A DNA stretch of 64,000 nt from Dictyostelium firmibasis. Lineage: Eukaryota; Evosea; Eumycetozoa; Dictyosteliales; Dictyosteliaceae. A model generated the notes under the pieces. It worked only from the letters and a program-made list of their open reading frames with translations. It was not told the DNA's origin and did not search any database. This document shows, piece by piece, positions 17,640 through 46,482 of the stretch. The translations under genes were made by a program, and so were the position numbers. The stretch covers positions 4,629,001-4,693,000 of the forward strand of contig CM069765.1 in assembly GCA_036169595.1 (NCBI GenBank). Direction: 5' to 3'. The number at the start of each line of letters is the position of its first letter. Position 1 is the first letter of the stretch.

Positions 17640-18008
17640 AAAAAAAAGAAAAAAAAATTGCGCAAATTTTCCCACACCTGTAAAAAATTTTTTCAAAAAA
17701 TTTAGGGGGTGGGGGAGGGGTGGAAAGGTAAGATAGTTTGTAGTGAATACCGACTTTTGAAAAATCTTGAGAAGTTGTTTATATGTTTGAGGTCCTTGAT
17801 AAGAGGTGTTGATAGCATTTTTTAAAGAAGGGGTATGATCTTTTAAAAGGTGGTGGACAATGGCCTTAATCAAGACGAGATTCCCAACAATGACGGCTCC
17901 GATGACGCACCCTTTAACCCAGGGAGAAAAAATGAATCGTCTAAGAGGCGGAAAATAGTGTTCATACAATTTTGAATTCATTATATTGGCAATTCCTTGA
18001 GATAGCAT
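17640..18008 (-). pseudogene. Chlamydial-type hypothetical membrane protein (3' truncated)
   Basis: From ATG at 18008, about 120 residues of bacterial-looking protein: MLSQGIANIMNSKLYEHYF, then a membrane segment around residues 31-55 (VKGCVIGAVIVGNLVLIKAI), then a soluble tail. It lies on the same strand downstream of the pGP6-D-like gene, about 230 bp away. The C-terminal part is lost at the poly-A tract that joins the DIRS terminus, so the natural length is unknown. I recognise no family. Confidence 0.4.
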
Positions 18009-18236
18009 AGAAATCCTTCAATTTGATTTGTTTAATTTACACAATAAATAATTGTACAATATTTTAATAAATAATAGAATCTCTTTCTATGTTCCAAGCT
18101 TGATTATTAATTATTCAGAGATCTTTTATTGAGTGATCAAAAAGATCTAGATTAACAATGGGGCATTTTTTAACAATGCCCTCCTATCGTGGAAGTTTAC
18201 AGTAAATAAAAAAACTTAGGGGCAAGAGTTCTTGTT

Positions 18237-18953
18237 TTATGCAAGCAGTCTTTGGATTGAGATCAGCTGTTGATCGATGAGTTTTTTTTCTTCTGCAGTC
18301 GGAGAGAGCTTAGGTTTTTTGAATAACCGGTGAAGTTTGTACAATAAGGATAAACTTTGTATCACGAGATTCTCTTGCCTTTGATCACTTTCTTCTAGAG
18401 GGAATAATCGCCGAATATTTTCCAGGAGTTCATGTTTTGTTTCTCCTTGATAATTGGTAATGAATTCTTGCTTTTTTACCCAAGAGATATCGCGGCTAGC
18501 AAGGGTATAAATAGCTTGCCGAGGAATGTCTTCTAATTTATCTTGAAGAGGCACGGGAAGTTGAAGATAAAATTCATAATATTGCAAAAAATTGTAAGGC
18601 GTTTGCCGGTTGCCATAAGTTGACATGAGCCAACGTGAGAAGGCTCCATCTCTGTAATGCTTTAAGATTAGCTGGGCTTTTTGGATTCTTTCTCCATGCA
18701 AGATCACAGCTTGATTGGAAATCGCTTTAATTTCTGAGGTAACACTGGCTAAGGTCAAGAAATCTTCTTCTACAGGTCTATACTCTTGAAGAATCTCTCG
18801 TAACGTTTCTTGATCCTTTTCTGAAAGGGGATGAACCTTAAACACTCCTGAGAAGCTAGAAAGGTCTCCTCTTGAAGAAAGGGTGGCAAGTTGAGCCATC
18901 TTAGAAGGCTTGGATTTAAGTCTAGAAGAGAGAAGGCGGTTGACATTAGACAT
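18237..18953 (-). CDS. pGP6-D-like chlamydial protein
   Basis: A 238-residue frame, intact from ATG to stop, resembling the pGP6-D family found on chlamydial plasmids and, as a paralogue, in the chlamydial chromosome. Visible features include the start MSNVNRLLSSRLKSKPSKMA, the central segment FSRWLMSTYGNRQTPYNFLQ (ParB-like/partition-associated in character) and a Lys/Gln-rich C-terminus. Its ATG overlaps the end of the parA-like frame by 8 bases, as in a bacterial operon. The order thrS-parA-gp6D is the chromosomal order I know from Chlamydia. Function is presumed DNA partition or regulation with ParA; the family's role is not well defined. Surprisingly it carries no lesion while its neighbours do. 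Confidence 0.75.
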   Translation of the reverse strand: MSNVNRLLSSRLKSKPSKMAQLATLSSRGDLSSFSGVFKVHPLSEKDQETLREILQEYRPVEEDFLTLASVTSEIKAISNQAVILHGERIQKAQLILKHYRDGAFSRWLMSTYGNRQTPYNFLQYYEFYLQLPVPLQDKLEDIPRQAIYTLASRDISWVKKQEFITNYQGETKHELLENIRRLFPLEESDQRQENLVIQSLSLLYKLHRLFKKPKLSPTAEEKKLIDQQLISIQRLLA

Positions 18954-19702
18954 ACAGGGATAACCTTTGCAAGATTTCTTGAGCCAACTCGGTAAAATCT
19001 AGAGCGGCTCTTGATTTTGGGGCTGTGTCAAAAATAGACTTTCCGTAAATACTTGATTCAGAAACAGCGACATCTCGCCTGACCTTGGTTTCTAAAATTT
19101 TACCGGGATAAGTCTCTTCAATCACCTCTAAGAAGGTGTCATTACTTTTACCTCGAGGATTCCAAAATGAAAGAATGACGCCCAGGATGTCAAGAGAGTG
19201 TCTGATCGATAAGTTTTCAATAAACTGCGAAAGTCTTTGAAGCCCTTTAACACTATAAAATTCAGGTGTGGCTGCAATGAGGGCAAATTGCGAAGCAATT
19301 AATGCCGATTCCATCAGCCAGCAAAGAGAGGGGGGTGTCGATAATGATTGTATCAAACTGTGTCAAAGGGGTTAAAATCGTTTTCAGTTTCTCATGAGAG
19401 TACCGATCTGCTGCAAGAGCTTGCGTCACTTCAACACGTTCTAACCATGTATCTGCTGCAATCAGAGATAAGTTAGGGTAAGGTGTTGAAAGAATCACCT
19501 CTTCAATAGATTTAACGCCTGGGGCTAAACTATCTTGAGCATCGGGATCATACCCAAGTCCTGTCGTTAGGTTAGCTTGCGCATCAAAATCAATGAGAAG
19601 GACATTTTGGTGATGAAAAAGAGCAAGGGCAGCTCCTAAATTAAGGGAGGACGAGGTTTTTGCCGTCCCTCCTTTAAAACTACTTACCGTGATCACTGGC
19701 AT
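18946..19702 (-). pseudogene. parA: ParA/MinD-type ATPase (chlamydial), frameshifted
   Basis: A ParA-family ATPase. Residues 1-20 (MPVITVSSFKGGTAKTSSSL) carry the deviant Walker A motif KGGTAKTS. Then come LLIDFDAQANLTTGLG (Walker A') and FDTIIIDTP (Walker B). Just after this motif the frame breaks near 19320-19330; the downstream part continues in another frame (ALIASQFALIAATPEFYSVK ... ILGVILSFWNPRGKSN) to the stop at 18946. Total coding length fits the usual ~250 residues. It starts 4 bases or so after the thrS stop and overlaps the pGP6-D-like start, so it was the middle gene of an operon. It partitions DNA in the living bacterium; here it is a pseudogene with one visible frameshift. Confidence 0.8.
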
Positions 19703-19708
19703 TGCTTT

Positions 19709-21415
19709 AACCTGTAAAACTAGAGGTGAGGGATTTGCTCCTTTTTTCTTTAATTAAATTGTTTAAAAAGGTTTCAAATGTGATTTCCCCATGAAGAACG
19801 TTATCCCGGGTTCTAAGCGACAAGGTTTGATTTTCCATTTCTTTATCCCCAATGGTGATCATGTAGTTGATTTGAAGAAGCTGGGCATTTCTCACCTTTT
19901 TATTCATCGATTCTGAGCTGTCATCTACATCGCAAATGAAACCAGCTTCGATCATTTTTTCTGCAACATCAATGCAGTTTCTAAATGCCTATCGGGCAAC
20001 AGTCATAATCCGAATTGGAAGGGGGCTGATCCATAAGGGGAATTTTCCGACAAAATGTTCAATCAAAATCCCGAAAAATCTCTCCACAGATCCAAAGATC
20101 GCTCGGTGGAGCATGACGGGATGTTTTGCTAGTCCATCTTTGTCAATGTTTTCAAGCTCGAACTTTTCAGGAAGAGCCATATCCAGCTGCACAGTTCCAC
20201 ATTGCCACGATCTTCCTAGAGCATCTTTAATTTGGATGTCAATTTTAGGACCGTAAAAAGCGCCGTCGCCTTCATTAACCCGAAACTGTTTTTTCCAATC
20301 TTCTAAAGCCTCTTTTAATCCAGAAGTTGCAATTTCCCAATCGGCATCAGTTCCAATACTTTTTTCAGGTCTTGTCGAAAGTTCTTATCGACTCTCAAGG
20401 CCAAATGTGGAATAAATGGTTTCAATCAGGTCTAGAATGCGTGAAATTTCAGATTTGATATCTGACGGTTTCATAAAAAGATGTGCATCATCTTGGTGGT
20501 CAGTAGTGGTCCCAATGACCTGACCGCTCCCACAGCTCTTGGTTCATCAATTGTGGGGTTTTAATTTCATCATACCCAGAGCTGAGCATCAAATCTCTTA
20601 AGAAATCTACAAGACGGTTACAAATGATCATCCCTTTGGGGTAGATAAAGGGAATGCCAGGCGCTTCTTTGATAGAAAAAAGAGCCAGTTTAGGGCCTCT
20701 TTTATGATCTCTTTTTTTCGCCTCTTCCAGAAGAGTAAGATAATCTTTCAGCAGCTGCCGTTGAGGAAATGAGATTCCATAGATACGCTTTAGCATAGGC
20801 TTTGTCGCATCACCTCTCCAATAGGCTCCAGATGTTTTTAACCATTTAAACGCTTTAATTTTCCCCACGCGAGGAAGGTGAGGTCCTCTGCAAAGGTCAA
20901 AAAATTCCCCCTGCTCATACGCTGTGAACAAACCTTCTTCAAACCCTTCAATCAACTCAACTTTAAAGGGATTTTCTTTAAATCTTAGCTTTGCCGCAGC
21001 TCTATCTTGAAAAAGGTGCCGTTTAGGCATAGGGTTTTCGTTAATGATATTGGAAACTTCTTTTTCAATTTTTTCAAAATCTGCATCCGTAATCGACAGG
21101 TTGGCAAAATCGTAATAAAATCCTTGTTCAATGGCAGGGCCAATCGTCGGATGCCTCTGGCCATAATCTAAGAACAGCTTGAGCGAGCACGTGAGCCGAT
21201 GTGTGCCAAAAAATTTCTTTCCCTAGAGGGGTGTCAAACGAAATCAACTCTAGCGCATCACCTTCTTGAATAGGGGTTTCGATATCAAAAAGTGTTCCGT
21301 TGATTTTCACAGCAAGCGCTTAATCAGGGCTATTGAGATGAAGCATTTCAACAAGGTCTTTTACAGATTGCTTTGTTTTTAAATCGATGATCTTTCCATT
21401 CAAGGTGATTGGCAT
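19709..21415 (-). pseudogene. thrS: Threonyl-tRNA synthetase (chlamydial), degraded
   Basis: ThrRS charges tRNA-Thr. The start at 21415 (MPITLNGKIIDLKTKQSVKD) is preceded by an AGGA Shine-Dalgarno 6 bases upstream. Domain order: TGS, the HxxxH editing region (HTSAHVLAQAVLRLWPEA), the SAD/zinc region (FDLCRGPHLP), the class II core ([30 protein letters not shown]), and the anticodon-binding domain (GFICDVDDSSESMNKKVRNA). Lesions seen: an in-frame TAA at 21320-21322, a frameshift near 21150, an internal deletion near 20500 (HWDHY runs almost directly into QDDAHLF, losing ~50 residues with motif 2), an in-frame stop near 20387, and another near 19990. It is clearly non-functional. The 210 bp upstream to the DIRS end at 21628 holds no gene. 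Confidence 0.85.
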
Positions 21416-22031
21416 ATAGATTCCTAAAACATAAGGTTTTTTCTAGTTAAAGGGAAAAAACGAAAAAACCAAAGCACGATTCTTGACACGGTTTAGAATT
21501 CATCCATGCTGTGCTTTAAAAGGTGTGCTGTTGGAGGAAAAAGAGCTTTAAATATTCTTGATTAAAAATTAGTATCAAATTTTGCGATCTTTCACTTCTA
21601 TTTATTGTTAAGATATCGCATTAAATTAAAAATTTAAATAATTAAATTATATTTTATATTAAATATATATATTTAAATTTATGAATATATTTATTTATTT
21701 GAAATTCCCAAATATTTAAGATAGTTTTCAGAGAAATTCAAGAGAATTTTCTGGAGATATTTTAGCTCGAAAAAATTATTGAAAAAATGAAAAATTTCGA
21801 GTTTGAAAAAAGTTGCCACGTGTCACGCACCTATTTTTTTGAGTTTTGCGAAATTTTTCAGAAAGTAAGAACAGTATAAATAGTGGCACTAAATATTGAA
21901 AACAATTTGATTTATATGGAATTCCGACTAAGGGAGGGCGGGTTGGGACCAATTTAAATATATATATTTAATATAAAATATAATTTAATTATTTAAATTT
22001 TTAATTTATATTATCATATATATATTTAAAT

Positions 22032-23039: not shown

Positions 23040-24524
23040 TTAGAATCTACTTGGTGGTTTACTGGTTCTACCACTCTTTGTGACTTTACTTATAACAACT
23101 TCCGATTCTCCTCCTTTACTATTAACTCTTTTCCTTCCAGCTTTGGATTTATTGAAATTCTCCGGAGCCTCTGGATCTTGAAGGTTACTCTCTGATCTGT
23201 CGGATAAAGAGATATTGGAGGTTTCAGGATGAACAATTGACTCAAGATTTTCTTGTTGTCTGCTCTCCCTCCCTTGTTTTGAGTTCAATTTTTCATTTTG
23301 AACTTCCCAATATTCTTTTATCAACTCATCACAGTTGGCATCTTCCTCTTTGACCCATTCAGGTTCTGGATAACCAACAAACTTGGCTAGATAACGTCTA
23401 TGTTTTCTATCGTAGTTAATAATTTTTTCTACTTCATAGGTGGACTCTTCAGTCTCTTCTGCGTCAGGCATTGATATTTCATTTCTAATCCAATCATCAT
23501 CTTCGAATAGTTGTACTAATTGGTCAACGTTGAACACATTGTGTTTTCTAGGATAACTAATTAGATCTAGAGTTACATTGTTTCCATTTACTTCAATGAT
23601 TTTGAATGGACCACAATTTTTTGATTCTAGTTTTTTAGAAATAATATCTTTTGAAAGACCAGTTTCAAAGTATTTTCTTTTTACAAACACTTTGTCACCT
23701 ATTTTGTAGTCGGGTGCTTTACCACGATTTTTATTATAATATTTTTGTGAGGTTATTTGAGCATCAAGAATATTATCACGTATGATTTTTTTGATACTAC
23801 TCAACGGAATCTTAGTTCTTGTTAAAGTATTAAAATGACTCACTGGAGTTGGTGGATTGAAACCATAAACTGCTTGGAAAGGTGACATTTTCGTTACCTT
23901 ACTAATAGATGAATTCATTGCAAATTCTGCTAACGCAGTAAGATCTGCCCATCCTTCTCCGTATGTGCTCGACATCTTTGTTAGGATTGCAACGAATTCT
24001 TGAATTTTTCTTTCAGTTTGGCCATCCCCTTTCGCTCTATGTGCAACAGTCATTTTTAATTTCGAATCCATAGTTTCAGCCCAAAGTCTCCAAATTTCCG
24101 ATATGAATTTTGGGTCTCTGTCTGATACAATGGTCCTTGGATAACCATGTAATCTGAAAACATGATTCAACATGAGTTGTGCTGTATGTTCAGCATTGAT
24201 GGTTTTAGCACATGGGATTGCATGAATCATTTTAGATAATCTACATACTATCATGCAGCATTGATCTACTTCAACTTGGAATCCATTCATTGCCATTTTA
24301 GATTTGGGCATGGAGACGAAATCCATTGATATGTCCCTCCAAACCTCATAGGGTATTTCTAAACTTTGAAGTAACCCAGTTTCCTTTCTATTGATATTCA
24401 ATTGACATACTGCACAAGATTTGATATATCTTTTAATTATATAATACATCTCTAAAATAGTAATCATGTCTAATGTTATTATACACGACTTCGAATGACT
24501 TGTGACCACTATATTTGGCGTCAT
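23040..24524 (-). CDS. Skipper integrase with C-terminal chromodomain
   Basis: The C-terminal part of pol. It shows a CAVCQLN half of the HHCC zinc-binding region, the integrase catalytic core (ISMDFVSMPKS; TIVSDRDPKFISEIW; the DDE acidic residues are recognisable), a GPY-like module (NCGPFKIIEVNGNNVTLDLI), and a chromodomain near residues 365-415 (YEVEKIINYDRKHRRYLAKF, VGYPEPEWVKEED). The chromodomain places it among chromoviruses, whose integrase is guided to methylated histone H3 in heterochromatin. The tail is basic. Confidence 0.85.
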   Translation of the reverse strand: MTPNIVVTSHSKSCIITLDMITILEMYYIIKRYIKSCAVCQLNINRKETGLLQSLEIPYEVWRDISMDFVSMPKSKMAMNGFQVEVDQCCMIVCRLSKMIHAIPCAKTINAEHTAQLMLNHVFRLHGYPRTIVSDRDPKFISEIWRLWAETMDSKLKMTVAHRAKGDGQTERKIQEFVAILTKMSSTYGEGWADLTALAEFAMNSSISKVTKMSPFQAVYGFNPPTPVSHFNTLTRTKIPLSSIKKIIRDNILDAQITSQKYYNKNRGKAPDYKIGDKVFVKRKYFETGLSKDIISKKLESKNCGPFKIIEVNGNNVTLDLISYPRKHNVFNVDQLVQLFEDDDWIRNEISMPDAEETEESTYEVEKIINYDRKHRRYLAKFVGYPEPEWVKEEDANCDELIKEYWEVQNEKLNSKQGRESRQQENLESIVHPETSNISLSDRSESNLQDPEAPENFNKSKAGRKRVNSKGGESEVVISKVTKSGRTSKPPSRF

Positions 24525-33607: not shown

Positions 33608-34025
33608 TATTTTATTGATATCTAAAATTATTTTTATAGAGATAGAGAAAAGGTATTAAATTAATAAAAGAATTTTTTTTTTTTTTTTTTTTTTTTATAA
33701 TTATTTGTATAAATTATGTGTGTGTATCTTAAATATATATAGGAGGAATTCCCAAATAAAATAAATCAAATTGTTTTCAATATTTAGTGCCACTATTTAT
33801 ACTGTTTTTACTTTCTTCAAAATTTCGCAAAACTCAAAAAAATAGGTGCGTGACACGTGGCAACTTTTTTCAAACTCGAAATTTTTCATTTTTTCAATAA
33901 TTTTTTCGAGCTAAAATATCTCCAGAAAATTCATTTGAATTTCTCTGAAAATTATCTTAAATATTTGGGAATAATCAAATAAATAAATGTATTCATAAAT
34001 TTAAATATATATATGATAATATAAA

Positions 34026-34327
34026 TAAGATGGCACCGCCATTTAGAGTGGCAGAATTTGACATTCTCTTTGGAGAGGGCATCTCTCGAGCAGGTTCTAT
34101 TTTAGATATCGCGGCAGATTTCAATATCATTGATAAGAAAGGAGCTTGGTTTAGCTATAAAGGGCAAATATTTGGACAGGGAAGAGATACTGTTCGAGAT
34201 GAGCTCAAAAAGAATCCAAAGCTCTTAGATTGAGCTCCAAGTCACCATAATAATGAAAGAAAAAAAGATAGAGGCTACTTCTAAAGCGGCTTCTGAACTA
34301 TTTGATGAGCCATTAACCGATAGCTAA
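34026..34327 (+). pseudogene. recA: RecA, C-terminal fragment (chlamydial)
   Basis: It begins at the DIRS terminus in mid-gene with (NK)[17 protein letters not shown], then SGAW-type segment [18 protein letters not shown]: the end of the RecA core and the start of the C-terminal domain. The frame stops at 34231-34233. A second frame continues (ELQVTIIMKEKKIEATSKAA) to a TAA at 34325-34327, so a one-base frameshift near 34228 is likely. RecA does homologous recombination and SOS control in the bacterium. The N-terminal ~260 residues, including Walker A, are not next to the other end of the DIRS element. Confidence 0.8.
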
Positions 34328-34371: not shown

Positions 34372-34375
34372 ATAT

Positions 34376-34816
34376 CTATTCGCCTCGGCTCAGAGAGAGA
34401 GCATGAGAGTGCTGCGATAACAGTCGAGTCATATGGATAAGTGATTTTTCTTTTTCATCACACTCTTGATAGAGTTTTAGTCGATTTTCCATAAGATCAA
34501 CTGCATCTCGAACATGGGCATCAATTGCTTTTATAGCTCTATTCACTCCAAATTGAAGTGCATAATTCACTGTTTTTCCAGATAGTCGATCTTTCTCGAT
34601 ATCATCGATATCATCAAGTATTTGAAAAGCTCTACCAAAGTGGAGCGCAAGCTGTCGAACGTTCGGTAGAAGATCCATATCGCCTCCTCCAAAGATCCAA
34701 CCAAGCGTGAATGAGAGCTCAAATAGTGCCCCTCTCTTCATATCTATAATTGTCTCGATAGTTTTTTGAGACATATCAGGTGGATTTAAATCGACTAGCT
34801 GCCCACCAATAAGCCC
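34376..34816 (-). pseudogene. ispA: Polyprenyl (farnesyl/geranyl) diphosphate synthase, 3' half
   Basis: The C-terminal half of an IspA-type trans-prenyl synthase: GLIGGQLVDLNPPDMSQ at the break, then RGALFELSFTLGW, and the second Asp-rich motif FQILDDIDDIEKD, ending at 34376. The N-terminal half is at 37057-37557 on the same strand. The reading continues exactly across the break (GASG then LIGGQ) if the sequence between is taken out, so a 2.24 kb insertion split one gene. IspA makes C15/C20 prenyl diphosphates. In Chlamydia ispA lies next to a glmU-like gene, as here. Confidence 0.8.
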
Positions 34817-35122
34817 TCCGAAATAAAGTATTTTTATGGTGTCTTTGGTGCATTGGTTTGTTCAGCAAAAATAATCGATCTGCACGCGAAACGGCATAAT
34901 TTAATTAAAAAATATAAAATTTAAATCGAAAAAATTAAAATTTGTGTTTTTTAAAAATAAAAATCTCATATTTTAATTAAAATTAATTTTTTTATTTTTT
35001 TTTATTTTTTTTTATTTTTTTTTATTTTTTTTTATTTTTTATTTTTTTTATTTTTTTTTATTTTTTTATTTTTTTATTTTTTTTGACAAATGGTATTATA
35101 TTTGAAATATTGATACAATAAA

Positions 35123-35209
35123 GACGATGAAACAGAGATGGAAGATTGGGTTGAGGAACTATTTGATCAAATAGTTCCTCATTCCAATCTCTATCTCTGT
35201 TTCATCGTC
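35123..35209. repeat. Large hairpin, ~43 bp arms
   Basis: GACGATGAAACAGAGATGGA... is followed after the centre TTTGATCAAA by its near-exact reverse complement ...CTCTGTTTCATCGTC. Only a few mismatches occur. The arms encode an acidic peptide-like sequence, so it may be an inverted duplication of a coding scrap. Confidence 0.8.
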
Positions 35210-35429
35210 TTCGTCTTCGTAGACATCCTGGTTATCATCTGGATTGTTTTTAGTTTTGATTATTATTATTTTGACTTTGATTTTGATATTGGTTTTGAGA
35301 AAATTGATGATCAATTTGTAAATGGTTAGTGAAGATCACAATTATTCATATGATAATGATGATGATGCATCACCCATTAATACGTTTTTGGATCGTCAAA
35401 TATTGAATTCAGAAATCTATTTGATTTAA

Positions 35430-35990
35430 ATAATACCAATACACTTCTACTACTACTACCTCTTCATCCATCACCTTCCAATAATCCTGCTTCTTCATCA
35501 AGATCATCACTACTCCTGCTTCACCACCGCTACTACCTCTTGATCCACCATCTAATACTCCTGCTTCTTCATCATGATCATCCAATACTCCTGCTTCTTC
35601 ATCACAATAACAAACTCTCTTTAAATAATACCAATACTACTTCTACTACCTCTTCATCATCACCACCATTGAATACACCTGCCTCTTTATCAAGATCATC
35701 CAATATCACCACTACCCTACCACTGCTACTGCTACTGCTACTGCTACTGCTACTGCTACTGCTACTACCTCTTCATCATCACCACCATTGAATACACCTG
35801 CTTCTTCATAACAATCATCTAATACACCTACTTCTTCATAACAATCATCTAATACACCTACTTCTTCATCACAATCATCTAATACACCTGCTTCATCATC
35901 CAATACCACTACCTCAACTGCCACTGCTACTAATACTACCTATTCTTCATCACCACGAAATACACCTTCTTCTTCATCTAACACTGGTAC
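35430..35990 (+). repeat. Trinucleotide-rich low-complexity tract
   Basis: Tracts of CTACTGCTACTG, ACTACCTCTTCATCATCACC and four or more repeats of CACCTACTTCTTCAT(A/C)ACAATCATCTAATA. One frame reads poly-Leu, another Thr/Ser/Pro-rich. It resembles dictyostelid low-complexity coding DNA but has no sustained gene. Confidence 0.5.
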
Positions 35991-36140
35991 TACTTTAAGA
36001 ATGTCTTCATCTGTTTACCAAAAATTTTAGTAAGATTATATTGGCCTGCAACCATTATGGATACAGATGGTCATCTATATATGAAGAAATAGAATATATA
36101 TTAAAAATTAAGTAGGTATGAATTTTTTAAAAAAAAAGAA

Positions 36141-36266
36141 ATACATTTATATTAATGTATATAACTTGTAGATTGACCTATTTTAAAATTTATATACAAT
36201 ATTGTTTATTTTAAAATTTTAAAATAGGTCAATCTACAAGTTGTATGTACATTAATATAAATGTAT
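36141..36266. repeat. Large hairpin, ~50 bp arms
   Basis: ATACATTTATATTAATGTA...TAGATTGACCTATTTTAAAA is mirrored by TTTTAAAATAGGTCAATCTA...TACATTAATATAAATGTAT with a loop of roughly 25 bases. The near-perfect arms suggest a MITE-like or recently formed palindrome. Confidence 0.8.
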
Positions 36267-36269
36267 TTT

Positions 36270-36990
36270 AAAATGAACTAATGCACCTGTAAAATATAAT
36301 CTTGTTATTATATATATTGTTATTATTTGTATAGTTTCAAAAAAAATGAAAAAAAAAATAAAAAAAAATAAAAAATAAAAAAAAATATTCCTGACGAGCA
36401 GCAAAAATTTATTTCAAAAAAATTTGAGAGTGTGGTAGGTGGGATGTATGAAATCTTGAAGTGGAGTGATGGAAATCAAAAAATTTACATATGTTCTCAG
36501 TTGCCAAATGAAAGAAGCCGTTTGTGAATATGCGAGTGAAATTTTTGTAAAAAAAAAAAAATATTTACCATTTACAATTTCCTATTTATATTTATTTTTT
36601 TTATATTTTATTATTTAATTTTTTTTTGAATAATTATTAATACATAATAAAAATTTACATATAAAAAAAAAAAAAAAAAAATTTTTACTCATAAAAAAAA
36701 AAAAAAAAAAAAAAAAATCACCATTTAAAATGACATTATTACTTTTTTTTCATAGTTATTGATTAAAAACATCTAAAACACTCATATAACCCAAGAAGAT
36801 ACCTTATCATAATGAAAGGGCCTGTTGTTCTGTTATGACATGGTTATTTTGGAGTGTTGATAAGGCTTTTCAAAACTCCGCAAGATCTAAAAAAATAAAA
36901 AAATAAAAAAAATATTTTTTTAATTTAAATTTTAATTATTTTTATTTTTATTTTTAAATTAATTTTTTCCCGGGTTATATAACAAATAAA
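36270..36990. other. AT-rich DNA, no gene
   Basis: Right part of the ispA insertion. It contains poly-A and poly-T tracts and a few less AT-rich words, for example TGGGATGTATGAAATC and AAGGGCCTGTTGTTCTG. No coding frame or RNA gene was recognised. Confidence 0.4.
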
Positions 36991-37056
36991 ATCGAATGCA
37001 CCAGATTATTGGTCATTTTAATATGAACTTATCAATACTAAAAACCGGAGGGGGCC

Positions 37057-37557
37057 TGAAGCACCCATTGTACGGCTTGATTCTAAGATCGCCCGTTTTA
37101 TTGCATCTGGATGAGCCTTATCACACAACTTTGATCGAGCAATTGATTGAAACCCAAGGGCAATTAATGAAAAGCTAGCTAAAATAGCTGTGGCTTCAGA
37201 GAAGGCTTTATGCGTAGTTGGAACGCCGCGGCGCATAGCATCGTTATCCATACATGGGAGATCATCGGCAATTAAAGATGATGTATGGAAATACTCAACA
37301 GCAAAAGCTGCATTATCAAGATACTCATGCTTTGCACACCCTAAAGCCTCCCCTACCATCCAGACAATTGCAGGCCTAAATCTCTTTCCAGAGGATGAAA
37401 GGGCATAGTGAGACGCTTATTTGAGCTCTTGAACGGCTCCGAATTCTCCAGATGAAAGATGCTCTTTTAGCAACTCTTCAAAGCGAATTTTGTGTGGAGC
37501 AATAATCATTCCCAAAGATGTCAGAAAACGCTCAGTACTATTATGAGATGGTATCAT
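37057..37557 (-). pseudogene. ispA: Polyprenyl (farnesyl/geranyl) diphosphate synthase, 5' half
   Basis: N-terminal half of ispA. Two starts are possible: ATG at 37557, overlapping the end of the GlmU-like gene, or ATG at 37509 (MIIAPHKIRFEELLKEHLSS). Then ALSSSGKRFRPAIVWM (the conserved GKR...RP segment) and the first Asp-rich motif SSLIADDLPCMDNDAMRRG. An in-frame TAA lies at 37417-37419, and the gene is cut at 37057 after TMGASG by the AT-rich insertion. So it carries at least two lesions. The operon with the upstream GlmU-like gene matches Chlamydia. Confidence 0.8.
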
Positions 37558-38263
37558 AGAGGAAATTTTGATTCGCTGATTCTATAGCAATCGTGCTTTT
37601 TTGCATCGATTTTACTCTAGCATGAGCCGGAATAACTCCGGTAATATAGAGAGTTGGATAGCAAAAGGCACTCTTTCCAACAACTGTTCCTGGGCTTAAA
37701 ACAGTATTACAACCAATTTGAGAGCTATCGCCAATAATTGATCCAAATTTTCTTAACCCGGTAGCTATTTTTTTGCCCTCATATTGAATAAAGATCGGTT
37801 GGTTATCGAAACGAAGGTTTGCACATTTAATACCAGCGCCTATATTTACCCCATTTCCAATGATAGAATCTCCGATAAAGGCAAAGTGAGCCGCTTTTGC
37901 ACCATCTAATAGAATAGAGTGCATTAATTCAGTAGTATGACCGATTACGCAAGCATCACCGACAAGTACATGACCTCTAATATAAGCCCCATGCCGTATT
38001 TCGCAGTTCTTTCCAATAATTGCTGGCCCTTTGATATAGGCTCCAGCCTCAATAGTCGTCCCTTCACCTATTGAGATCATCTCTGGATTTTCAAAAGTTA
38101 CGCCCTTATATACGCCAATATCAATAGAATTCCATTTTTGGGCAGAGAGGTACAAGTCTATCCTCGGAAGCACCTGCCAAACGTAAGCGACATCATAAAA
38201 AATCGAGCTATGTAAAAAGCTAGATAGGTTAAAAAAATTCTCAGGAGAATGCCAAAAAGACAT
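37541..38263 (-). CDS. GlmU-like left-handed beta-helix protein (chlamydial)
   Basis: An intact 240-residue frame. The N-terminal ~50 residues are unique (MSFWHSPENFFNLSSFLHSS), followed by hexapeptide-repeat turns of a left-handed beta helix: VTFENPEMISIGEGTTIEAG, IIGKNCEIRHGAYIRGHVLV, FIGDSIIGNGVNIGAGIKCA and IIGDSSQIGCNTVLSPGTVV. This resembles the acetyltransferase half of GlmU and the short GlmU-like gene placed before ispA in Chlamydia. No nucleotidyltransferase domain is present. Presumed sugar-nucleotide or acyl transfer for envelope synthesis in the bacterium. It has no lesion, unlike its neighbours. The short length is normal for the chlamydial form as I recall it. Confidence 0.7.
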   Translation of the reverse strand: MSFWHSPENFFNLSSFLHSSIFYDVAYVWQVLPRIDLYLSAQKWNSIDIGVYKGVTFENPEMISIGEGTTIEAGAYIKGPAIIGKNCEIRHGAYIRGHVLVGDACVIGHTTELMHSILLDGAKAAHFAFIGDSIIGNGVNIGAGIKCANLRFDNQPIFIQYEGKKIATGLRKFGSIIGDSSQIGCNTVLSPGTVVGKSAFCYPTLYITGVIPAHARVKSMQKSTIAIESANQNFLYDTIS

Positions 38264-38540: not shown

Positions 38541-38568
38541 CATGCTTTTAGACACAATCTATCTACTT

Positions 38569-39754
38569 ATGAACAGACTATTTTCTTTTCACTGTCCCCA
38601 TTTTAAGCTATGTCCTGGATGTGAAAAAGAGCGACCTTTTGAGTCGTATCCAATTCTTTATCAACAAGCTAAAGATTTTTTTGCTCAAATTTCCTTGAGA
38701 AAAATTGAGACGTCCTTTGTCTATGGAGAGCCGATTCTTTGGAGAATAAGAGCCAAACTTGCTTGTAGACAAGTCGAAGGGCGTATTCGGTTTGGAATTT
38801 TTGAGAAAGGATCCCATAATCTCGTTCCAATTCCTCACTGCAGAGTTCACCATCCTGCAATAAATAGAGCTGTAGAGCTTATTGAAAGAGTATGTAATAG
38901 CCTTAGACCAGCCGCTGCCTATCATGAAAAAAAACATTCAGGACTTATCAGATATATTCAATGCTCCGTTGATCGTTCATCTCAGAAAGTTCAACTGGTT
39001 ATTGTCATCTGCGAAAGAGATGTGGCATGAAGAGTGCTCATTTATTGAAATAAAGCTCAAAGAGCATCTAGAGACTATCCATTCGATCTGGTTCAATTAC
39101 AATCCTGATAAAACGAATAGAATTTATGGGGATGAATGGAGACATGTTTTTGGCCCTGAGCATATTTGGGAGCGTATATGTGAAAAAGAGATTCCCCATC
39201 TTCCTTCCCATTTTATGCAGGGAAATCCTGAACTTTTTGAAAAACTTCTTAAAGAGGTGCAAAACCAACTATCCAAAGAGGAGCATCTCATTGAACTCTA
39301 TGCAGGAATGGGCGTTATCAGTATAGCACTTCGAGATAAAGTAGCCTCAACGCTCTCTATTGAAGAGAATCGAGAGTCCTACAGCTCTTTTTGCACAGCA
39401 AAAGGCCGTCTTTCTATAGAGCTACAAAACGAGTGTCAGTTTATTGTTGGTGATTCTGAAAAAGAGTATTTAGGAATTGAACGGAGAAAGCACACACTTC
39501 TCGTCGATCCGCCAAGAAAGGGCCTATCGCAGAGGCTTGTCCAGTCTCTTTCGGAAGATCCCGACTCTACAGGGGCGCAAAAGCTGATCTACATCTCTTG
39601 TCACTATCCAAGCCTTGAAAGAGATATCTCAATTCTTGTAAAGAGTGGAAAATGGGTGGTATCTCATGCAAGCTGCTACCTCTTTTTTCCAGGAACAGAG
39701 CATATAGAGACTTTGGTCATCATGAATCGAAAAGAAGAGACAAAATCTTGGTGA
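38569..39754 (+). pseudogene. RNA (uracil-5-)-methyltransferase, RlmD/TrmA family (chlamydial), frameshifted
   Basis: SAM-dependent enzyme making m5U in rRNA/tRNA. Start at 38569 (MNRLFSFHCPHFKLCPGCEK) is chosen because the Cys-rich Fe-S motif CPHFKLCPGC follows at once; an upstream in-frame ATG near 38542 is an alternative. The first part is read to about 38990, after which the frame shifts (near 38940-39010). The rest, with SAM motif LIELYAGMGVISIAL, DPPRKGLSQRLV and the catalytic Cys motif YISCHYPSLERD, and the final FFPGTEHIETLVIM, is read in another frame to 39754. The combined length (~395 residues) is normal for the family, so a single frameshift is the only lesion seen. Confidence 0.8.
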
Positions 39755-39775
39755 GAAGATTTTAACTTCCGACCC

Positions 39776-39798
39776 CTTGCACCCCATGCAAGTTTTTT
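39776..39798 (+). terminator. Intrinsic terminator after the methyltransferase gene
   Basis: CTTGCA-CCCCA-TGCAAG forms a 6 bp stem followed by TTTTTT, 20 bases after the stop codon. Confidence 0.6.
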
Positions 39799-40103
39799 CG
39801 TCTTTTTATTGTCTCGATTAGTCTCATTATGTCGCATAAAATCAAATTCACAAGACATCTTAGAGTTTGGTTTTGTCTTTTTATATTATCATATATATAT
39901 TGAAATTTATGAATACATTTATTTATTTGATTATTCCCAAATATTTAAGATAATTTTCAGAGAAATTCAAATGAATTTTCTGGAGGTTTTTTAGCTCGAA
40001 AAAATTATTGAAAAAATGAAAAATTTCGAGTTTGATAAAAGTTGCCACGTGTCACGCACCTATTTTTTTGAGTTTTGAGAAATTTTTCAGAAAGTAAAAA
40101 CAG

Positions 40104-40111
40104 TATAAATA
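40104..40111 (+). promoter_or_regulatory. TATA box in DIRS left ITR
   Basis: TATAAATA, about 180 bp before the gag ATG at 40288, lies in the conserved ITR block CAGTATAAATAGTGGCAC. The same box is present in the other A-type ITRs. It is the likely core promoter of the element. Confidence 0.55.
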
Positions 40112-40287
40112 GTGGCACTAAATATTGAAAACAATTTGATTTATTTTATTTGGGAATTCCTCCTATATATATTTAAGATACACACATAATTTATACAAAT
40201 AATTAAAAAAAAAAAAAAAAAATTCTTTTATTAATTTAATACTTTTTCTCTATCTCTATAAAAATAATTTTAGATATCAATAAAATA

Positions 40288-40921
40288 ATGTCTACCACCG
40301 ATAATAATAACCACGCTAGTAGCTCTACCGAAAATAATTCTAATTCGTATGAAACAAGAATGAAATCGCTTGAGGATCAAATCTCCAATCTCTCATTAGC
40401 TTTTACAAGATATATGAAAGAGCCAATCAGAGAGTCGTACGGTAACTCTGATAATCAACGTTCTAATGATGAATCTGAAACTGAGAATGAACAAGGTGAT
40501 GATGAATCTATTCGTTTGTTATTCGAACTACTACTTCCAGTAGTGTTATTACCACCTGTATTGGTTGATTTCTTAAAGTTTGACTTTGATTGATTGTTAA
40601 CTTTTAACAATGATTGTTTGGCTTAATTGTTCTTTCTGATTGACTTTGCTAACTTTCTTACACGTTAAGATTCAGTATCATCAAACATCTTTGGAGTATC
40701 TTTGATCTTGATTGGTTGAACCACTTCGGAACCGTAGATTTCTTTTGAGATATTGTTACGACGAACACGAGCTAATGTTGCTTGAGCACTAACAACTAAC
40801 TGAATGGACGAGTCAGCTAAGTAACCTAAGAGTTCAGTGTCGATATCAGTTTTATCGGATGATAACATACTTGATAGCAAAAGTATTGGTTTCAATACAT
40901 CATTGATTCTCTTTTCGACAA
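40288..40921 (+). pseudogene. DIRS gag region (rearranged)
   Basis: Opens with the gag start MSTTDNNNHASSS at 40288. The region is a rearranged, broken gag. Confidence 0.6.
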
Positions 40922-40957
40922 TTCGTTTGGAAAGGAACTCATTACAGATGGAGAACA

Positions 40958-42391
40958 ATGCCATTCGGGTTATCGTCAGCTCCTCGAGTCTTTACAATGT
41001 TAATGAGACCAGTACTCCGAATGCTAAGAGATATCAACATTTCCGTAATCGCCTACTTAGACGATCTTCTAATCGTTGGTTCAACAAAAGAAGAATGTTT
41101 AAACAACCTCAACCAAACAATGAATATGTTAGTCAAACTCGGATTCAAGTTAAATCTAGAAAAGAGTGTTCTCGAGCCAACTCAATCAATAACGTTTCTA
41201 GGATTACAAATCGATTCAATATCAATGAAGCTACTTGTTCCAAAAGAAAAGAAGAAGAGTATCATCAAGGATATCAGGAACTTTCTAAAACTCGAAACTT
41301 GTACTCTAAGAAAGTTAGCTGGTTTAAAAGGAAAACTGATTGCATTGAAAGATGCAGTAATACCATTCCGTTTATACACTCGTCAAACAAACAAGTTTCA
41401 TTGTCAAAGTCTGAAACTAGCAAATGGAAATTGGGATCAATCATTTCCAATTTCTCAAGATGTCAAGAAAGAAATTTCAAATTGGTTAACTCTATTAAAC
41501 CAATGGAATGGAAAAGAAATAAGTCTGTTTCCAAGTTACGATTATGTTCTAACAACAGATGCTTCAGAATCAGGTGCAGGTGCAACTTTAATGAAAGACA
41601 AAAAACTCATCAAAACTTGGTCATTCCAGTGGTCAGAAGTCCAATCAAACATGTCATCGAACCGTCGAGAAATGCTCGCTCTACTAATGGCATTTCAAAC
41701 TCTATGTCGGAAGTTGAACAATTGTAATCTAAAGATTCAAACCGACAACACAACGACTCTCTCGTATGTCAATCTCCAAGGTGGTCAGATTCAAGATCTA
41801 TCGATTCTCTTCGAACAGCTCTGGAAACAATGTCTCAAGAAGAAAATCAATCTGATCGGGGAACACATTCCAGGATTCTTCAATGTCAAAGCCGATCACC
41901 TCAGTCGTCTATCAGAGATGAATCACAAACTATCCAAGCCGATCAAGAGTTACAATTGGCAACTCAAGAAAGAAGTATTCAATCGAATTCAACTCCAATT
42001 CGGTCAAATTCAAATGGATCTGTTTGCTTCACACTTCAACCATCAAACAATCAATTACTCAACCATGAAAATGAATGCTCTACAACTCGATTGGAGTCAG
42101 TGGGATCAATGTCTAGCGTTCCCACCTCCAATACTTTTGCCTTCTGTGATGGAGAAGATGAACTTATTGAGTTCGAAGATGGTTTCTATAATACTGATCT
42201 TCCCGATTTGGAGATCAGCAACTTGGTATCCGATGATTCAAGCTCAAGTTCCTCGTCATCATCACCATCTGTTTCCTCAAGTACTGGGTACGTTCCAAGA
42301 AGTATTGACAAAAGAATCGATAGAGTCAATACCAATTCAAATTCAGCAACGATGGAAATTGGGGATTATTCGACTTTCCAATCTCATGTAA
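40958..42391 (+). CDS. DIRS reverse transcriptase / RNase H (5' truncated)
   Basis: Begins at MPFGLSSAPRVFTMLM and contains AYLDDLLIVGS, FLGLQIDS, LTTDASESGAGA, RREMLALL, QTDNTTTLSYVN and KADHLSR. The first third of RT is not present. Confidence 0.75.
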   Translation: MPFGLSSAPRVFTMLMRPVLRMLRDINISVIAYLDDLLIVGSTKEECLNNLNQTMNMLVKLGFKLNLEKSVLEPTQSITFLGLQIDSISMKLLVPKEKKKSIIKDIRNFLKLETCTLRKLAGLKGKLIALKDAVIPFRLYTRQTNKFHCQSLKLANGNWDQSFPISQDVKKEISNWLTLLNQWNGKEISLFPSYDYVLTTDASESGAGATLMKDKKLIKTWSFQWSEVQSNMSSNRREMLALLMAFQTLCRKLNNCNLKIQTDNTTTLSYVNLQGGQIQDLSILFEQLWKQCLKKKINLIGEHIPGFFNVKADHLSRLSEMNHKLSKPIKSYNWQLKKEVFNRIQLQFGQIQMDLFASHFNHQTINYSTMKMNALQLDWSQWDQCLAFPPPILLPSVMEKMNLLSSKMVSIILIFPIWRSATWYPMIQAQVPRHHHHLFPQVLGTFQEVLTKESIESIPIQIQQRWKLGIIRLSNLM

Positions 42392-43365
42392 AGTCAATAA
42401 TTAAAACAAGTAAATCGAGTACTTCGAATTTGTTTATGAACTCTTGGCAGCCATCAACCTTAAAGGTCTATGATTCAAACTACTCAAAGTTCCATTTCTT
42501 TTGTATTTTAAATCGTTTGGATCCATCAAAGATTACTCTGGTAGTTTTTATGGACTATTTGACCTATTTATTCAAGCTACAACCTCCGTTGGCTTATTCA
42601 ACAATTAACAGTCATCGTTCAATGCTTAATCAGTTGCTCATTCTTAGAAATCAATCTGAAATCGTTAATAATCCATTCATATCAAGAATAATGACTGGTA
42701 TTCACAAGTTACGTCCGAGTAACTCAAAGTATAATGAAATCTGGAATGCAAATCAAGTTTTCAAATACTTATCTACAATCAACGTTTATCCAAAGTTTAC
42801 ATACTCTGTTCTTCTACATAAGACTTTTGTTCTTTGTAAAATGTTTGGTTTAGCAAGGTCATCTGACTTGGTCAAATGGTCTTACAAGAATTTAATAATC
42901 ACTGAACACTCAATTAAAGCTCCTGTTATCAATGCAAAAGAACAAAGTAATACAAAGAATGCTGATATTTCAATTCTAGAATTAACTTCATTAGATGAAT
43001 CAAATGTAAGTATTTGTCCAGTTCTCCATCTTTCAAGATACCTCAAACACTCTGAACAAAGAAGAACTGCTTCATCTGGTGATTCGGTATTCATTCTCCG
43101 TGATGGTAATCCAGTTTCAGTCGAATATATAAACTCTATAGTTTTATCAATACTTTCAAAATCAGGTATTGATATTACAAAGTTCAAATCTCACTCTACT
43201 CGTTCCGCTATGGCTTCTCTCTTGTTGTCCAGTAATGTTCCATTCCATGTGGTCAAGAAACTCGGTCGTTGGAAATCAAATGATACAGTTGATAACTTTT
43301 ATGACAAGAAAATCATTGGTGAAAAATCTGGTGGTTTCTTAAATAATGTAGTCCAACTTTCATAA
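41830..43365 (+). CDS. DIRS tyrosine recombinase (YR)
   Basis: An open 511-residue frame overlapping the RT end. Ser-rich overlap region, core-binding domain LFMNSWQPSTLKVYDSNYS, catalytic domain HSTRSAMASLLL and LGRWKSNDTVDNFYDKK, C-terminus NVVQLS. Confidence 0.8.
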   Translation: MSQEENQSDRGTHSRILQCQSRSPQSSIRDESQTIQADQELQLATQERSIQSNSTPIRSNSNGSVCFTLQPSNNQLLNHENECSTTRLESVGSMSSVPTSNTFAFCDGEDELIEFEDGFYNTDLPDLEISNLVSDDSSSSSSSSSPSVSSSTGYVPRSIDKRIDRVNTNSNSATMEIGDYSTFQSHVKSIIKTSKSSTSNLFMNSWQPSTLKVYDSNYSKFHFFCILNRLDPSKITLVVFMDYLTYLFKLQPPLAYSTINSHRSMLNQLLILRNQSEIVNNPFISRIMTGIHKLRPSNSKYNEIWNANQVFKYLSTINVYPKFTYSVLLHKTFVLCKMFGLARSSDLVKWSYKNLIITEHSIKAPVINAKEQSNTKNADISILELTSLDESNVSICPVLHLSRYLKHSEQRRTASSGDSVFILRDGNPVSVEYINSIVLSILSKSGIDITKFKSHSTRSAMASLLLSSNVPFHVVKKLGRWKSNDTVDNFYDKKIIGEKSGGFLNNVVQLS

Positions 43366-43806
43366 ATTTAAATATATATATGATAATATAAATTAAAAAT
43401 TTAAATAATTAAATTATATTTTATATTAAATATATATATTTAAATTGGTCCCAACCCGCCCTCCCTTAGTCGGAATTCCATATAAATCAAATTGTTTTCA
43501 ATATTTAGTACCACTATTTATACTGTTTTTACTTTCTGAAAAATTTCACAAAACTCAAAAAAAATAGGTGCGTGACACGTGGCAACTTTTTTCAAACTCG
43601 AAATTTTTCATTTTTTCAATAATTTTTTCGAGCTAAAAAACCTCCAGAAAATTCATTTGAATTTCTCTGAAAATTATCTTAAATATTTGGGAATAATCAA
43701 ATAAATAAATGTATTCATAAATTTAAATATATATATTTAATATAAAATATAATTTAATTATTTAAATTTTTAATTTAAATATATATATTTAATATAAATA
43801 ATTACC

Positions 43807-44082
43807 GGAATTCCATATAAATCAAATTGTTTTCAATATTTAGTGCCACTATTTATACTGTTTTTTTTTTTCTTCAAAATTTCTCAAAACTCAAAAAAAT
43901 AGGTGCGTGACACGTGGCAACTTTTTTCAAACTCGAAATTTTTCATTTTTTCAATAATTTTTTCGAGCTAAAAAACCTCCAGAAAATTCATTTGAATTTC
44001 TCTGAAAATTATCTTAAATATTTGGGAATAATCAAATAAATAAATGTATTCATAAATTTAAATATATATATGATAATATAAA
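43807..44082 (+). repeat. Extra DIRS ITR fragment
   Basis: A second right-type ITR (starts GGAATTCCATATAAATC) follows the element's own right ITR. It ends with the left-type terminus GATAATATAAA, which abuts chlamydial rpsL-side DNA at 44083. Confidence 0.8.
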
Positions 44083-44152
44083 GAAGTCATTCTCAATTAC
44101 TTATCTGTAGAAATAGGGGTATCTACAGGCTTTAAGAGGGCACAAGACCGCT

Positions 44153-44518
44153 CTATTTAGGTTTTTTTGCGCCGTATTTTGACCGACTTTGTTTACGATC
44201 TTTTACTGCAGCACAATCTAAAGCTCCTCGAACGAAATGGTAACGAACACCAGGAAGGTCTTTAACCCTTCCACCTCTTACGAGTACAATGCTGTGCTCT
44301 TGGAGGTTATGGCCTTCGCCACCGATGTAAGCAATGACTTCTTGCCCGTTCGAAAGACGAACCCAAGCTACTTTTCTCAGCGCTGAGTTAGGTTTCTTTG
44401 GAGTTTGACTTGCAAGCACACGCCTCGTTTTTGAGGACATTCTTGCAAAGCAGGTGATTTACAACGTTTTGCTTTTCGTCCCCGCCCTGTTTTGACTAAT
44501 TGATTAATTGTCGGCATC
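44153..44518 (-). pseudogene. rpsL: 30S ribosomal protein S12 (chlamydial), frameshifted
   Basis: S12 sits at the decoding centre of the small subunit. Start at 44518, with Shine-Dalgarno AAGGA 6 bases upstream; the first part reads [20 protein letters not shown], then [17 protein letters not shown]. The frame then shifts by one base near 44405-44420 into [55 protein letters not shown] and the basic end [11 protein letters not shown]. Length is normal for S12 (~122 residues). One frameshift seen; not functional as it stands. The stretch between it and rho (44519-44715) encodes a short open piece (FELDKEKIQRSLIEYDL) that I cannot name. Confidence 0.85.
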
Positions 44519-44715
44519 AGTTTTCCTTAAAATAATTCAATATGAAAAAAGCGTTTCTCATGAACATGCATGTCTAAAGATATCTTTTTCTGGTGAAGAG
44601 GAAGTTTTAAGATCATACTCAATCAAACTTCTCTGAATCTTTTCTTTATCCAATTCAAAGCACACCTTGGATCTGTTTCTACCCCCCTCTATTCCCTGAA
44701 TTCATGGATTGGCAA

Positions 44716-45710
44716 CTACTCTTTCATCGAGAGAAGAAACTCAATATTGCTATTAGTCTTCTTTAAACGGCCCGTTAAAAGATTCATGTCATCTAAAGGT
44801 GATAAATCAGCAAGTGCTTGCCGCATCAGATAGATTTTCTCGAGTTCTTCAGGGTGGCACAGAAGCTCTTCTTTACGCGTTCCGCTCTTAATCAGATCAA
44901 TCGCAGGATAGGTTCTTCGGTCGGCTAAACGTCTGTCAAGAACCAGTTCTATATTTCCCGTTCCTTTAAACTCTTCAAAGATCACTTCATCCATACGAGA
45001 TCCGGTATCAATCAACGTTGTGGCAATGATCGTCAGTGATCCGCCCTCTTCAACATTACGAGCAGCTCCAAATATTCGCTTGGGTTTATGAAGGGCATTA
45101 GCATCAATCCCTCCACTCAAAATTTTTCCTGAATGTGGCTGGATGGTGTTATAAGCCCGTGCAAGCCTTGTTAAAGAATCCAAAAGAATCAAGACATCCT
45201 GATAATACTCAACCAGTCTTCGAGCTTTCTCAATGGCCATCTCTGCCACTTGAACGTTTCTTTCAGGAGGTTAATCAAATGTAGAAGAAACTCCTAAAGA
45301 AAAGGAAATCGGATCGTTCCATAAACCGTATCTCCTTTTTTTAAATCAAACCGCCGGATTTGAGCTGGAGAGACATAAATATCTTCTGCAGAAGGGAGAT
45401 AATTGTAATTTGGAGAGCGTAAAAAACCAAATACATCCGGAAGAACTTCAAACACTCCTTCCCCTACTAAAACTTCTGTGGGAGATTCAGCTTTTGCTTT
45501 TATGATTTCAAAGACAAGTTGAGATTTAGCGATCGATCCTAAGTTAAGACTCATCATCCTTGCAACGTTATTGAGCTCTTCCACTTCCATACGTTGCAGA
45601 TCGGCAATTTTTGTAATCTGTTCTTGAGGTGTCGGTTGAGGGGGGGATGAAGGGAGGGTCTGTTCAGAAGAAAGCGCTTCTGATTCTGGATGGGATGGAT
45701 CGGATTTCAT
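44716..45710 (-). pseudogene. rho: Transcription terminator Rho (chlamydial), internally deleted
   Basis: RNA helicase that ends transcription. Start at ATG 45710 (MKSDPSHPESEALSSEQTLP), chosen because AGGAG precedes it by 6 bases. The N-terminal part has the Rho_N segment (MEVEELNNVARMMSLNLGSI) and RNA-binding cold-shock region (VFGFLRSPNYNYLPSAEDIY). Near 45290 the sequence jumps from GTIRFPF to VSSTFD, losing ~150 residues with Walker A and part of Walker B, and changing frame. An in-frame stop follows ([15 protein letters not shown]). The C-terminal part is intact: [35 protein letters not shown] (Q-loop side), [20 protein letters not shown], ending at 44716. Confidence 0.85.
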
Positions 45711-45729
45711 TCGTGCTCCTTGCATAAAT

Positions 45730-46120
45730 TGGGCAGTACCTTAAAAAAATTCTTTTTTTCATCGCACAACATCACCTACGATCCAGGTTTCTCAAGAAGA
45801 AAAATCTTGGTTATAAACCTCCTATTTCGATTTTGCTTAAAAGCAAAAAGAAGTAGGTTAATGGCTATAAGGAAGAAATCTTCTAAGAGTTGAATTGAGT
45901 TTAAAAACACAATAATCGTAAGTTTTTTCTATTAAAATGGTGATTTGTAATGATGTCTTAGGGGAAAAATAACTTTATATTCTCTTAAGACATTTAAGAG
46001 TGAGGAGCTTAACACGGTCATCGTGTCAGCATCAACTCTATCACCTCCCCTTTTTTTCATTAAACCGTAAATCAGTCAGTTGATTGAAGGTAAGAAAATC
46101 TATAGGGATGATTTTCCTTA
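45730..46120 (-). pseudogene. Possible dephospho-CoA kinase (CoaE) remnant
   Basis: Between polA and rho, where coaE lies in Chlamydia, only ~390 bp remain. One minus-strand stretch near 46000-46055 reads GGDRVDADTMTVLSSSLLNV, resembling the VDAD segment that follows the P-loop in CoaE. The rest has no usable frame. Position supports the call more than the sequence does. Confidence 0.3.
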
Positions 46121-46123
46121 ACG

Positions 46124-46482
46124 TTAACACTCTCCCCAATTTTTTCCAATTGAAATATGGACTTCAAGAGGAACTTTTAAAGTCATCACCTGTTCCATAT
46201 GGGCTTTAACGTCTTGAGATAACGAAAAAATCTCTTCTTGGGGCGCTTCAAAGAGTAATTCATCGTGAATTTGAAGGAGCATATGGCAGTGAGGTTTTTG
46301 ACTTAAGTGACGATCAATCTGAATCATTGCCATCTTTATCAAATCAGCAGCGGTTCCTTGCAGAGGGGTGTTAATGGCCAGTCTTTCAGAAGCGGCTCTA
46401 ATCATAGGATTTTTTTTCGTGAGATCAGGGATCGGCCGCTTTCTTCCTGTCATTGTGATGGCATACCCTGTCTTTCTTGCCT
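46124..46482 (-). pseudogene. polA: DNA polymerase I, C-terminal fragment (chlamydial)
   Basis: The last ~119 residues of the polymerase domain: ARKTGYAITMTGRKRPIPDL, then the conserved segment ERLAINTPLQGTAADLIKMA, and catalytic motif C MLLQIHDELLFEAP (HDE), ending IGKNWGEC at 46124. No lesion in this part. The upstream portion is lost at the junction with a DIRS fragment at 46483. The order polA-(coaE)-rho on one strand matches the chlamydial chromosome. Confidence 0.85.

Follow-up and report, generated by a model that had tools for sequence, protein, structure and literature searches.

How does DNA of chlamydial type come to lie inside a cluster of mobile elements on an amoeba chromosome? 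The question arises in Dictyostelium firmibasis, in a 64,000-nucleotide stretch of contig CM069765.1 (C1:4629001-4693000), here called the window; plain coordinates below are window positions. The genome comprises 31,455,843 bases on 12 contigs, of which C1 accounts for 9,412,997. The region is gene-poor and carries a cluster of DIRS and Skipper-type elements, as is typical of a dictyostelid DIRS cluster. Our answer is that this transposon-rich cluster very probably holds broken pieces of chlamydial chromosomes. The donors were likely two or more species of former endosymbionts, whose DNA was probably captured where chromosomes had broken.

Three blocks of the window contain chlamydial chromosomal genes, so that multi-gene donor DNA lies within a host chromosome contig, as in other symbiont-derived nuclear insertions. 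Their content is as follows.

~17746-21621: block A, with gp6D, minD and thrS
18237..18953, minus strand: gp6D/CT583 (UPF0137), open frame of 238 amino acids; Pfam UPF0137/pGP6-D, 4e-79; 86% to P0001
18961..19702, minus strand: minD/ParA-like gene in two frames; Pfam ParA at 18946-19702; tblastn
19713..21481, minus strand: thrS (allele thrS-2) in three frames; Pfam ThrRS SAD domain at 20500-21030; tblastn
~34026-39878: block B, with the recA end, ispA, a GlmU-like gene and trmA (m5U methyltransferase)
34024..34230, plus strand: recA 3' end, 64% to a chlamydial RecA (tblastn)
34376..34813, minus strand: ispA 3' part; Pfam polyprenyl synthase at 34376-34774; tblastn
37054..37560, minus strand: ispA 5' part; Pfam polyprenyl synthase at 37018-37359; tblastn
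37541..38263, minus strand: GlmU-like hexapeptide protein, open frame of 240 amino acids; Pfam; 87% to P0121
38545..39685, plus strand: m5U methyltransferase gene in two frames; Pfam at 38882-39754; tblastn
~44083-46483: block C, with rpsL, rho and the polA end
44153..44517, minus strand: rpsL (S12) in two frames; Pfam S12 at 44153-44440; tblastn 89% and 79%
44716..45725, minus strand: rho in two frames; Pfam at 44716-45249 and 45294-45725; NCBIfam rho
46124..46483, minus strand: polA 3' end; Pfam at 46124-46453; cut by an internally broken DIRS element

UPF0137 is a Chlamydia-restricted gene, without a match in any of 14 control genomes, and the window polA is the only one of chlamydial type among five polA matches in the genome. 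An earlier note on this DNA had listed the same genes (pGP6-D-like, ParA, ThrRS, RecA end, IspA, GlmU-like, m5U methyltransferase, S12, Rho and PolA end), and Pfam and tblastn recover every one of them; it had also described most as decayed, in agreement with the broken frames seen in most genes. The extent that it gave, 17640..46482, does cover the chlamydial blocks and needs correction at both scales: 17640-17745 is a host transposon end, with chlamydial DNA starting near 17746, and similar stretches reach far beyond, from 4.530 to 4.741 Mb of C1.

The arrangement of these genes follows that of chlamydial chromosomes. A search with gp6D returned 78 chlamydial loci, many of them short, and 11 of the 78 also contain block B genes. 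In three of them (L015, L018 and L042), thrS, minD and gp6D are followed some 5-10 kb further on by glmU and ispA, with the recA end in L015 and L018 and with trmA preceding glmU in L018 and L042. Gene order and strand are thus preserved within blocks A and B, while the mutual positions of the two blocks are swapped with respect to these relatives. A chlamydial plasmid was considered as the source of block A and rejected, because the order thrS-minD-gp6D occurs on chlamydial chromosome contigs. As for block C, the chlamydial genome G152 carries rho, a 201-amino-acid frame and polA consecutively; rpsL beside rho was not found in the chlamydial loci examined, the single rpsL match lying in G152, far from rho. 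Most strong tblastn matches fall within a ~62-kb arc of G152, outside which rho, polA, rpsL and several weaker matches map.

The chlamydial signal extends well beyond the window. Across C1:4530001-4792000, which was examined by self-comparison and tblastn, chlamydial open reading frames (ORFs) gave 1,153 matches and the same sequence reversed gave none, which excludes chance. The cluster comprises about 20 largely non-repeat stretches with a GC fraction of 0.37-0.44, running from 4530378 to 4740887 and totalling 48,522 bases, a set that includes pieces without proven chlamydial origin; 13,929 of these bases lie within the window. Matches outside the window comprise dus, a gspL-like gene, a second thrS fragment (thrS-1) with a divergent neighbour, a porin-like gene, recB, recD, dinG and a longer recA copy, which is RecA by Pfam (C1:4700243-4701103). 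The labels gspL, porin, recD and dus were read from the matched proteins, and the porin-like piece has no Pfam match.

Other frames in the wider cluster deserve mention here. C1:4604739-4614204 (L094, L095) contains SecA-like and ankyrin-repeat reading frames at a GC fraction of 0.41-0.44, possibly from another bacterial donor. At C1:4722462-4733075 (L100, L101), a recB start is followed ~4.4 kb later by frames that resemble the recB end and recD, so that a chlamydial recBD region with an interruption lies here. C1:4737837-4740887 (L101) carries two metallophosphatase-like copies in tandem, which are 77-78% alike and have a match in L085, whose record bears the label Chlamydiae.

Host elements adjoin, separate and interrupt the chlamydial genes. 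The following were placed in the window.

17626..17745: poly-A run and host transposon end adjoining block A; repeat matches elsewhere in the genome
21622..34025: DIRS pieces and a Skipper-like element (23040-26142) between blocks A and B; repeat coverage, ORFs
34814..37052: 2.24-kb host element with CCCTCCG ends, inserted in ispA; missing in the second block B copy
39879..44082: DIRS sequence with termini facing chlamydial DNA on both sides; joint comparison
53317..56149: host DNA transposon with a DDE_Tnp_4 ORF at 53447-54100; Pfam; left end cut by a DIRS terminus

The name Skipper-like follows the label in the earlier note and the ORF sequence rather than a family search. Two insertions lie inside donor genes themselves. 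One copy of the dus region carries a 337-base miniature inverted-repeat transposable element (MITE) with ATT on both flanks, and the other copy has a single ATT and no MITE; relatives of this MITE occupy many genome sites. The 2.24-kb element in ispA also has other copies in the cluster, its target repeat being unclear. Host transposons have thus inserted into donor DNA, in the case of the dus MITE with both a 3-bp repeat and an empty site.

The joints give a similar picture. Chlamydial DNA abuts a DIRS terminus at 34025, 39879 and 44082 and an internally cut DIRS element at 46483; such an internally cut element also borders the bacterial-looking piece that ends at 59864. The joints proposed in the earlier note now fall at ~21622, 34025, 39879, 44082, 46483 and 59864, each within 6 bases of its figure, and its nested transposons are borne out by the host elements inside dus and ispA and by the DIRS ends at the blocks. 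Among 27 printed joints, 11 have a DIRS terminus at or within 10 bases, and 16 have other sequence, in part DIRS that is longer or internal. Of the 11, two (12846 and 17625) face DNA without proven chlamydial origin, and no family match was obtained for 12847-13191. A DNA-transposon terminus (ACACCTCA) is present at 11 of 12 printed places, five of which adjoin bacterial-type stretches. At the edge of block A, the first ~106 bases of 17640-21600 have eight other matches in the genome; in three of seven loci the match of the transposon end stops at one and the same base, beyond which the DNA is unrelated, and in the other four the search string is absent on the plus strand. A tandem pair of 354-base units, 99% alike, lies at a DIRS end at 7719-8426.

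One further piece of the window looks bacterial.

56159..59864, plus strand: single-copy bacterial-looking piece; GC fraction 0.366; one copy in the genome

We do not count it as proven chlamydial, because no family or homologue was found for it and its tblastn matches are weak and confined to one end. It contains a perfect 42-base tandem duplication (57381-57464).

Duplicated copies within the cluster record how the chlamydial DNA has changed since it was copied. The high-GC stretches had been thought of as possibly single-copy, an option discarded when blastn found both block B and the dus region twice: block B recurs inverted at C1:4697848-4701297, the one further copy found by a DNA search of the genome that skips common words, and the dus region recurs inverted at C1:4572098-4574830. 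The second GlmU copy is short by ~112 bases. Seven aligned pairs of duplicate segments differ by 0.4-1.8% substitutions (n=67). For 42 of the 67, which lie in an assigned frame, the distribution over codon positions 1, 2 and 3 is 14/14/14; the remaining 25 lack an assigned frame, 17 of them in two pairs where none could be assigned. In seven control pairs of chlamydial contigs, 68-83% of the differences are at third positions. The probability of finding at most 14 of 42 at the third position is 0.0004 for an expected share of 0.6, 0.02 for 0.5 and 0.09 for 0.45. The copies therefore bear no mark of coding constraint after integration (14/14/14 versus 68-83%), and their divergence without codon-position bias fits resident nuclear DNA. 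Sequencing error, which could also fall evenly, is an unlikely cause of 1% differences in a 739x polished assembly.

Related pieces are also present on other contigs, three of them large (C2, C3 and C5), as found by single-query searches of the genome in which DNA searches skipped common words. The thrS-1 fragment (C1:4541008-4542220) recurs at C3:4859156-4860117 with 99% identity, and at C5:4154189-4154653 and C2:4970598-4971062 with 100% identity, over the same 465 bases in both. UPF0137 has two matches in the genome, the window gp6D and C7:7064-7783; minD matches the window and C7:2904-3653, 3.4 kb before the C7 gp6D and on the same strand. On C7, a small contig, minD and gp6D thus have the strand and order seen in chlamydiae, though they are 3.4 kb apart, and a weak thrS match at C7:2638-2814 overlaps a MITE match. 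These searches found no second copy of block C or of 56159-59864.

We provisionally place the C2, C3, C5 and C7 pieces in DIRS clusters because the assembly paper puts DIRS1 at the ends of D. firmibasis chromosomes 2, 3, 4 and 5 and describes two small contigs as mostly DIRS1 (PMC11193728). DIRS clusters on different contigs have probably exchanged DNA. For chromosome 1, the same source reports that DIRS1 covers a region at 4.5-4.8 Mb, where mRNA coverage is low and small-RNA coverage high; this region is apparently missing in D. discoideum, in which chromosomes 3 and 6 correspond to D. firmibasis chromosome 1 (PMC11193728). The main text contains no word starting with 'chlamyd' or 'centromer' (PMC11193728), and among openly licensed PMC papers we found no report of chlamydial DNA in this amoeba cluster.

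The comparison with Chlamydiae proposed in the earlier note yielded chlamydial matches, and trees were built for gp6D, GlmU and thrS. The window gp6D matches P0001 at 86% identity and P0002 at 74%, two proteins named as Candidatus Rhabdochlamydia, and its tree, made by a quick method, agrees with this placement. The GlmU-like protein is 87% identical to P0121, encoded on a 1,543,817-base contig, the next best matches reaching 60 and 63%; none of the 120 gp6D matches listed of 2,540 is on a contig of that size. In the GlmU tree, the window protein groups with P0121 and apart from L015, whose gp6D sits near that of the window, and a forced grouping with L015 was rejected by the approximately unbiased (AU) test (p = 0.003), L015 having been chosen after the first GlmU tree was seen. 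GlmU matches occur in 207 of 232 chlamydial genomes with best values of 56-58%, so these 232 include no close relative of the GlmU donor. The two thrS alleles have 65% of bases and 87 of 143 residues in common; thrS-1 falls in a clade with Parachlamydiaceae (98/89) and the window thrS beside L009 and L015 (90/58). These sequence comparisons make at least two chlamydial donor species likely, if not proven. In six records labelled Chlamydia trachomatis, Verrucomicrobia, Acidobacteria or Bacteroidetes (L041, L053, L011, L013, L070 and L050), gp6D, and except in L050 also thrS, falls among environmental chlamydiae; their taxon labels look wrong.

A single donor species and a single event, with the second thrS and minD-gp6D being paralogues within that donor, is unlikely rather than far-fetched. 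Most strong matches share one ~62-kb arc of G152, including blocks that we ascribe to two donors, which is not what independent donors would predict, and one clade for both thrS alleles is not rejected (p = 0.21). Set against this are the 86-87% relatives of gp6D and GlmU on contigs that differ in length, the rejected GlmU grouping with L015, a group named after the first GlmU tree, and thrS alleles that are alike in only 65% of bases. Further observations weigh against our explanation as a whole: gp6D and the GlmU-like gene are still open frames, the control contig pairs diverge more (7-21%) than the duplicates, and the joints between chlamydial and host DNA are those of the assembled sequence. 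Capture by end joining is a step that we infer, and the centromere function of the cluster is proposed by analogy with D. discoideum.

The two open frames are relevant to two other explanations. An assembly chimera, in which the assembler fused amoeba repeats with reads from a chlamydial symbiont living in the culture, has these frames in its favour; in addition, wild D. discoideum carries chlamydiae (PMC9723776, PMC11114107), and contigs of bacterial origin had to be discarded from this assembly (PMC11193728). Such contamination is nevertheless very improbable given the many separate joints on C1, the pieces on C2, C3, C5 and C7, a chlamydial gene that contains a host transposon with its target repeat, the broken frames of most genes and the even codon-position spread between duplicates. 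The genomic read coverage of the TNS-C-14 assembly is stated to be constant across the genome (PMC11193728). A contaminant contig of a living chlamydia was likewise rejected: in place of intact genes in an uninterrupted bacterial order, there are genes with broken frames, and host elements lie both within and between them. The earlier note had argued against a simple contaminant, and the duplicates, the empty MITE site and the broken frames agree with it. A functional transfer, in which gp6D, the GlmU-like gene or others would still serve the amoeba, as two complete-looking frames in the window might suggest, is the least credible option and was rejected: the second GlmU copy is shortened, the copies differ without codon-position bias, and the region combines low mRNA with high small-RNA coverage (PMC11193728).

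We therefore return to capture of endosymbiont DNA. The entry of such DNA into an amoeba DIRS cluster, as the earlier note had it, has gained gene order, host transposons in chlamydial genes and unbiased duplicate divergence as evidence; what has changed is that at least two donors are likely and that copies or relatives exist on other contigs. D. discoideum is reported to harbour rhabdochlamydiae (PMC9723776), and about 40% of the hosts sampled in another study carried obligate symbionts (PMC11114107). DNA of chlamydiae lysed inside the amoeba would reach the nucleus and be joined into breaks by end joining, and a gene-poor, probably silenced DIRS cluster would tolerate it. DIRS, Skipper-like and DNA transposons would then insert into the chlamydial DNA and cut it up, and repeat recombination would duplicate, invert and reorder the pieces, also between clusters on different chromosomes, while the chlamydial genes decay neutrally. 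A wider proposal, which we offer tentatively and would give somewhat less than even chances, is that centromeres trap endosymbiont DNA, that their DIRS clusters caught chromosomes from two or more chlamydial families, and that the bacterial tags, unlike the surrounding repeats, reveal recent exchange between non-homologous centromeres. On this view the chromosome 1 cluster, which D. discoideum with its separate counterparts, chromosomes 3 and 6, is reported to lack, may even have grown on foreign DNA.

Insertions of symbiont DNA in nuclei are best known from animals. If true, a chlamydial case in a small haploid genome near D. discoideum would open the passage of symbiont DNA into a nucleus to direct tests. 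The repeats of centromeres resemble one another too closely to be traced, and low-copy bacterial tags would make exchange between centromeres measurable. The chlamydial pieces would also document earlier infections of social amoebae by chlamydiae.

Organelle DNA offers one precedent: NUMTs (nuclear insertions of organelle DNA) are pieces of such DNA joined out of order in nuclear DNA, and the D. firmibasis pieces are likewise non-functional and out of order, with a symbiont as their source. Wolbachia DNA in insect nuclei, for example on chromosome 4 of Drosophila ananassae, is also large, multi-copy, symbiont-derived nuclear DNA (PMC4299567); here, in contrast, the donors are chlamydial and likely of more than one species, the host is an amoeba, and the pieces are cut up in DIRS clusters. 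Giant-virus insertions in Acanthamoeba share an amoeba host, partial copies, host mobile elements and intra- and inter-chromosomal recombination, and the model put forward for them has steps similar to the capture, colonisation and exchange proposed here (PMC12210455). Unlike those insertions, ours have a bacterial donor and lie in DIRS clusters rather than sub-telomeres. The closest setting is that of the DIRS-1/Skipper-1 clusters of D. discoideum, which are centromeric, with known CenH3 and H3K9 methylation, and which likewise combine DIRS and a Skipper-like element in large gene-poor clusters (PMC5633606). Unlike in D. discoideum, bacterial DNA forms part of the cluster in D. firmibasis.

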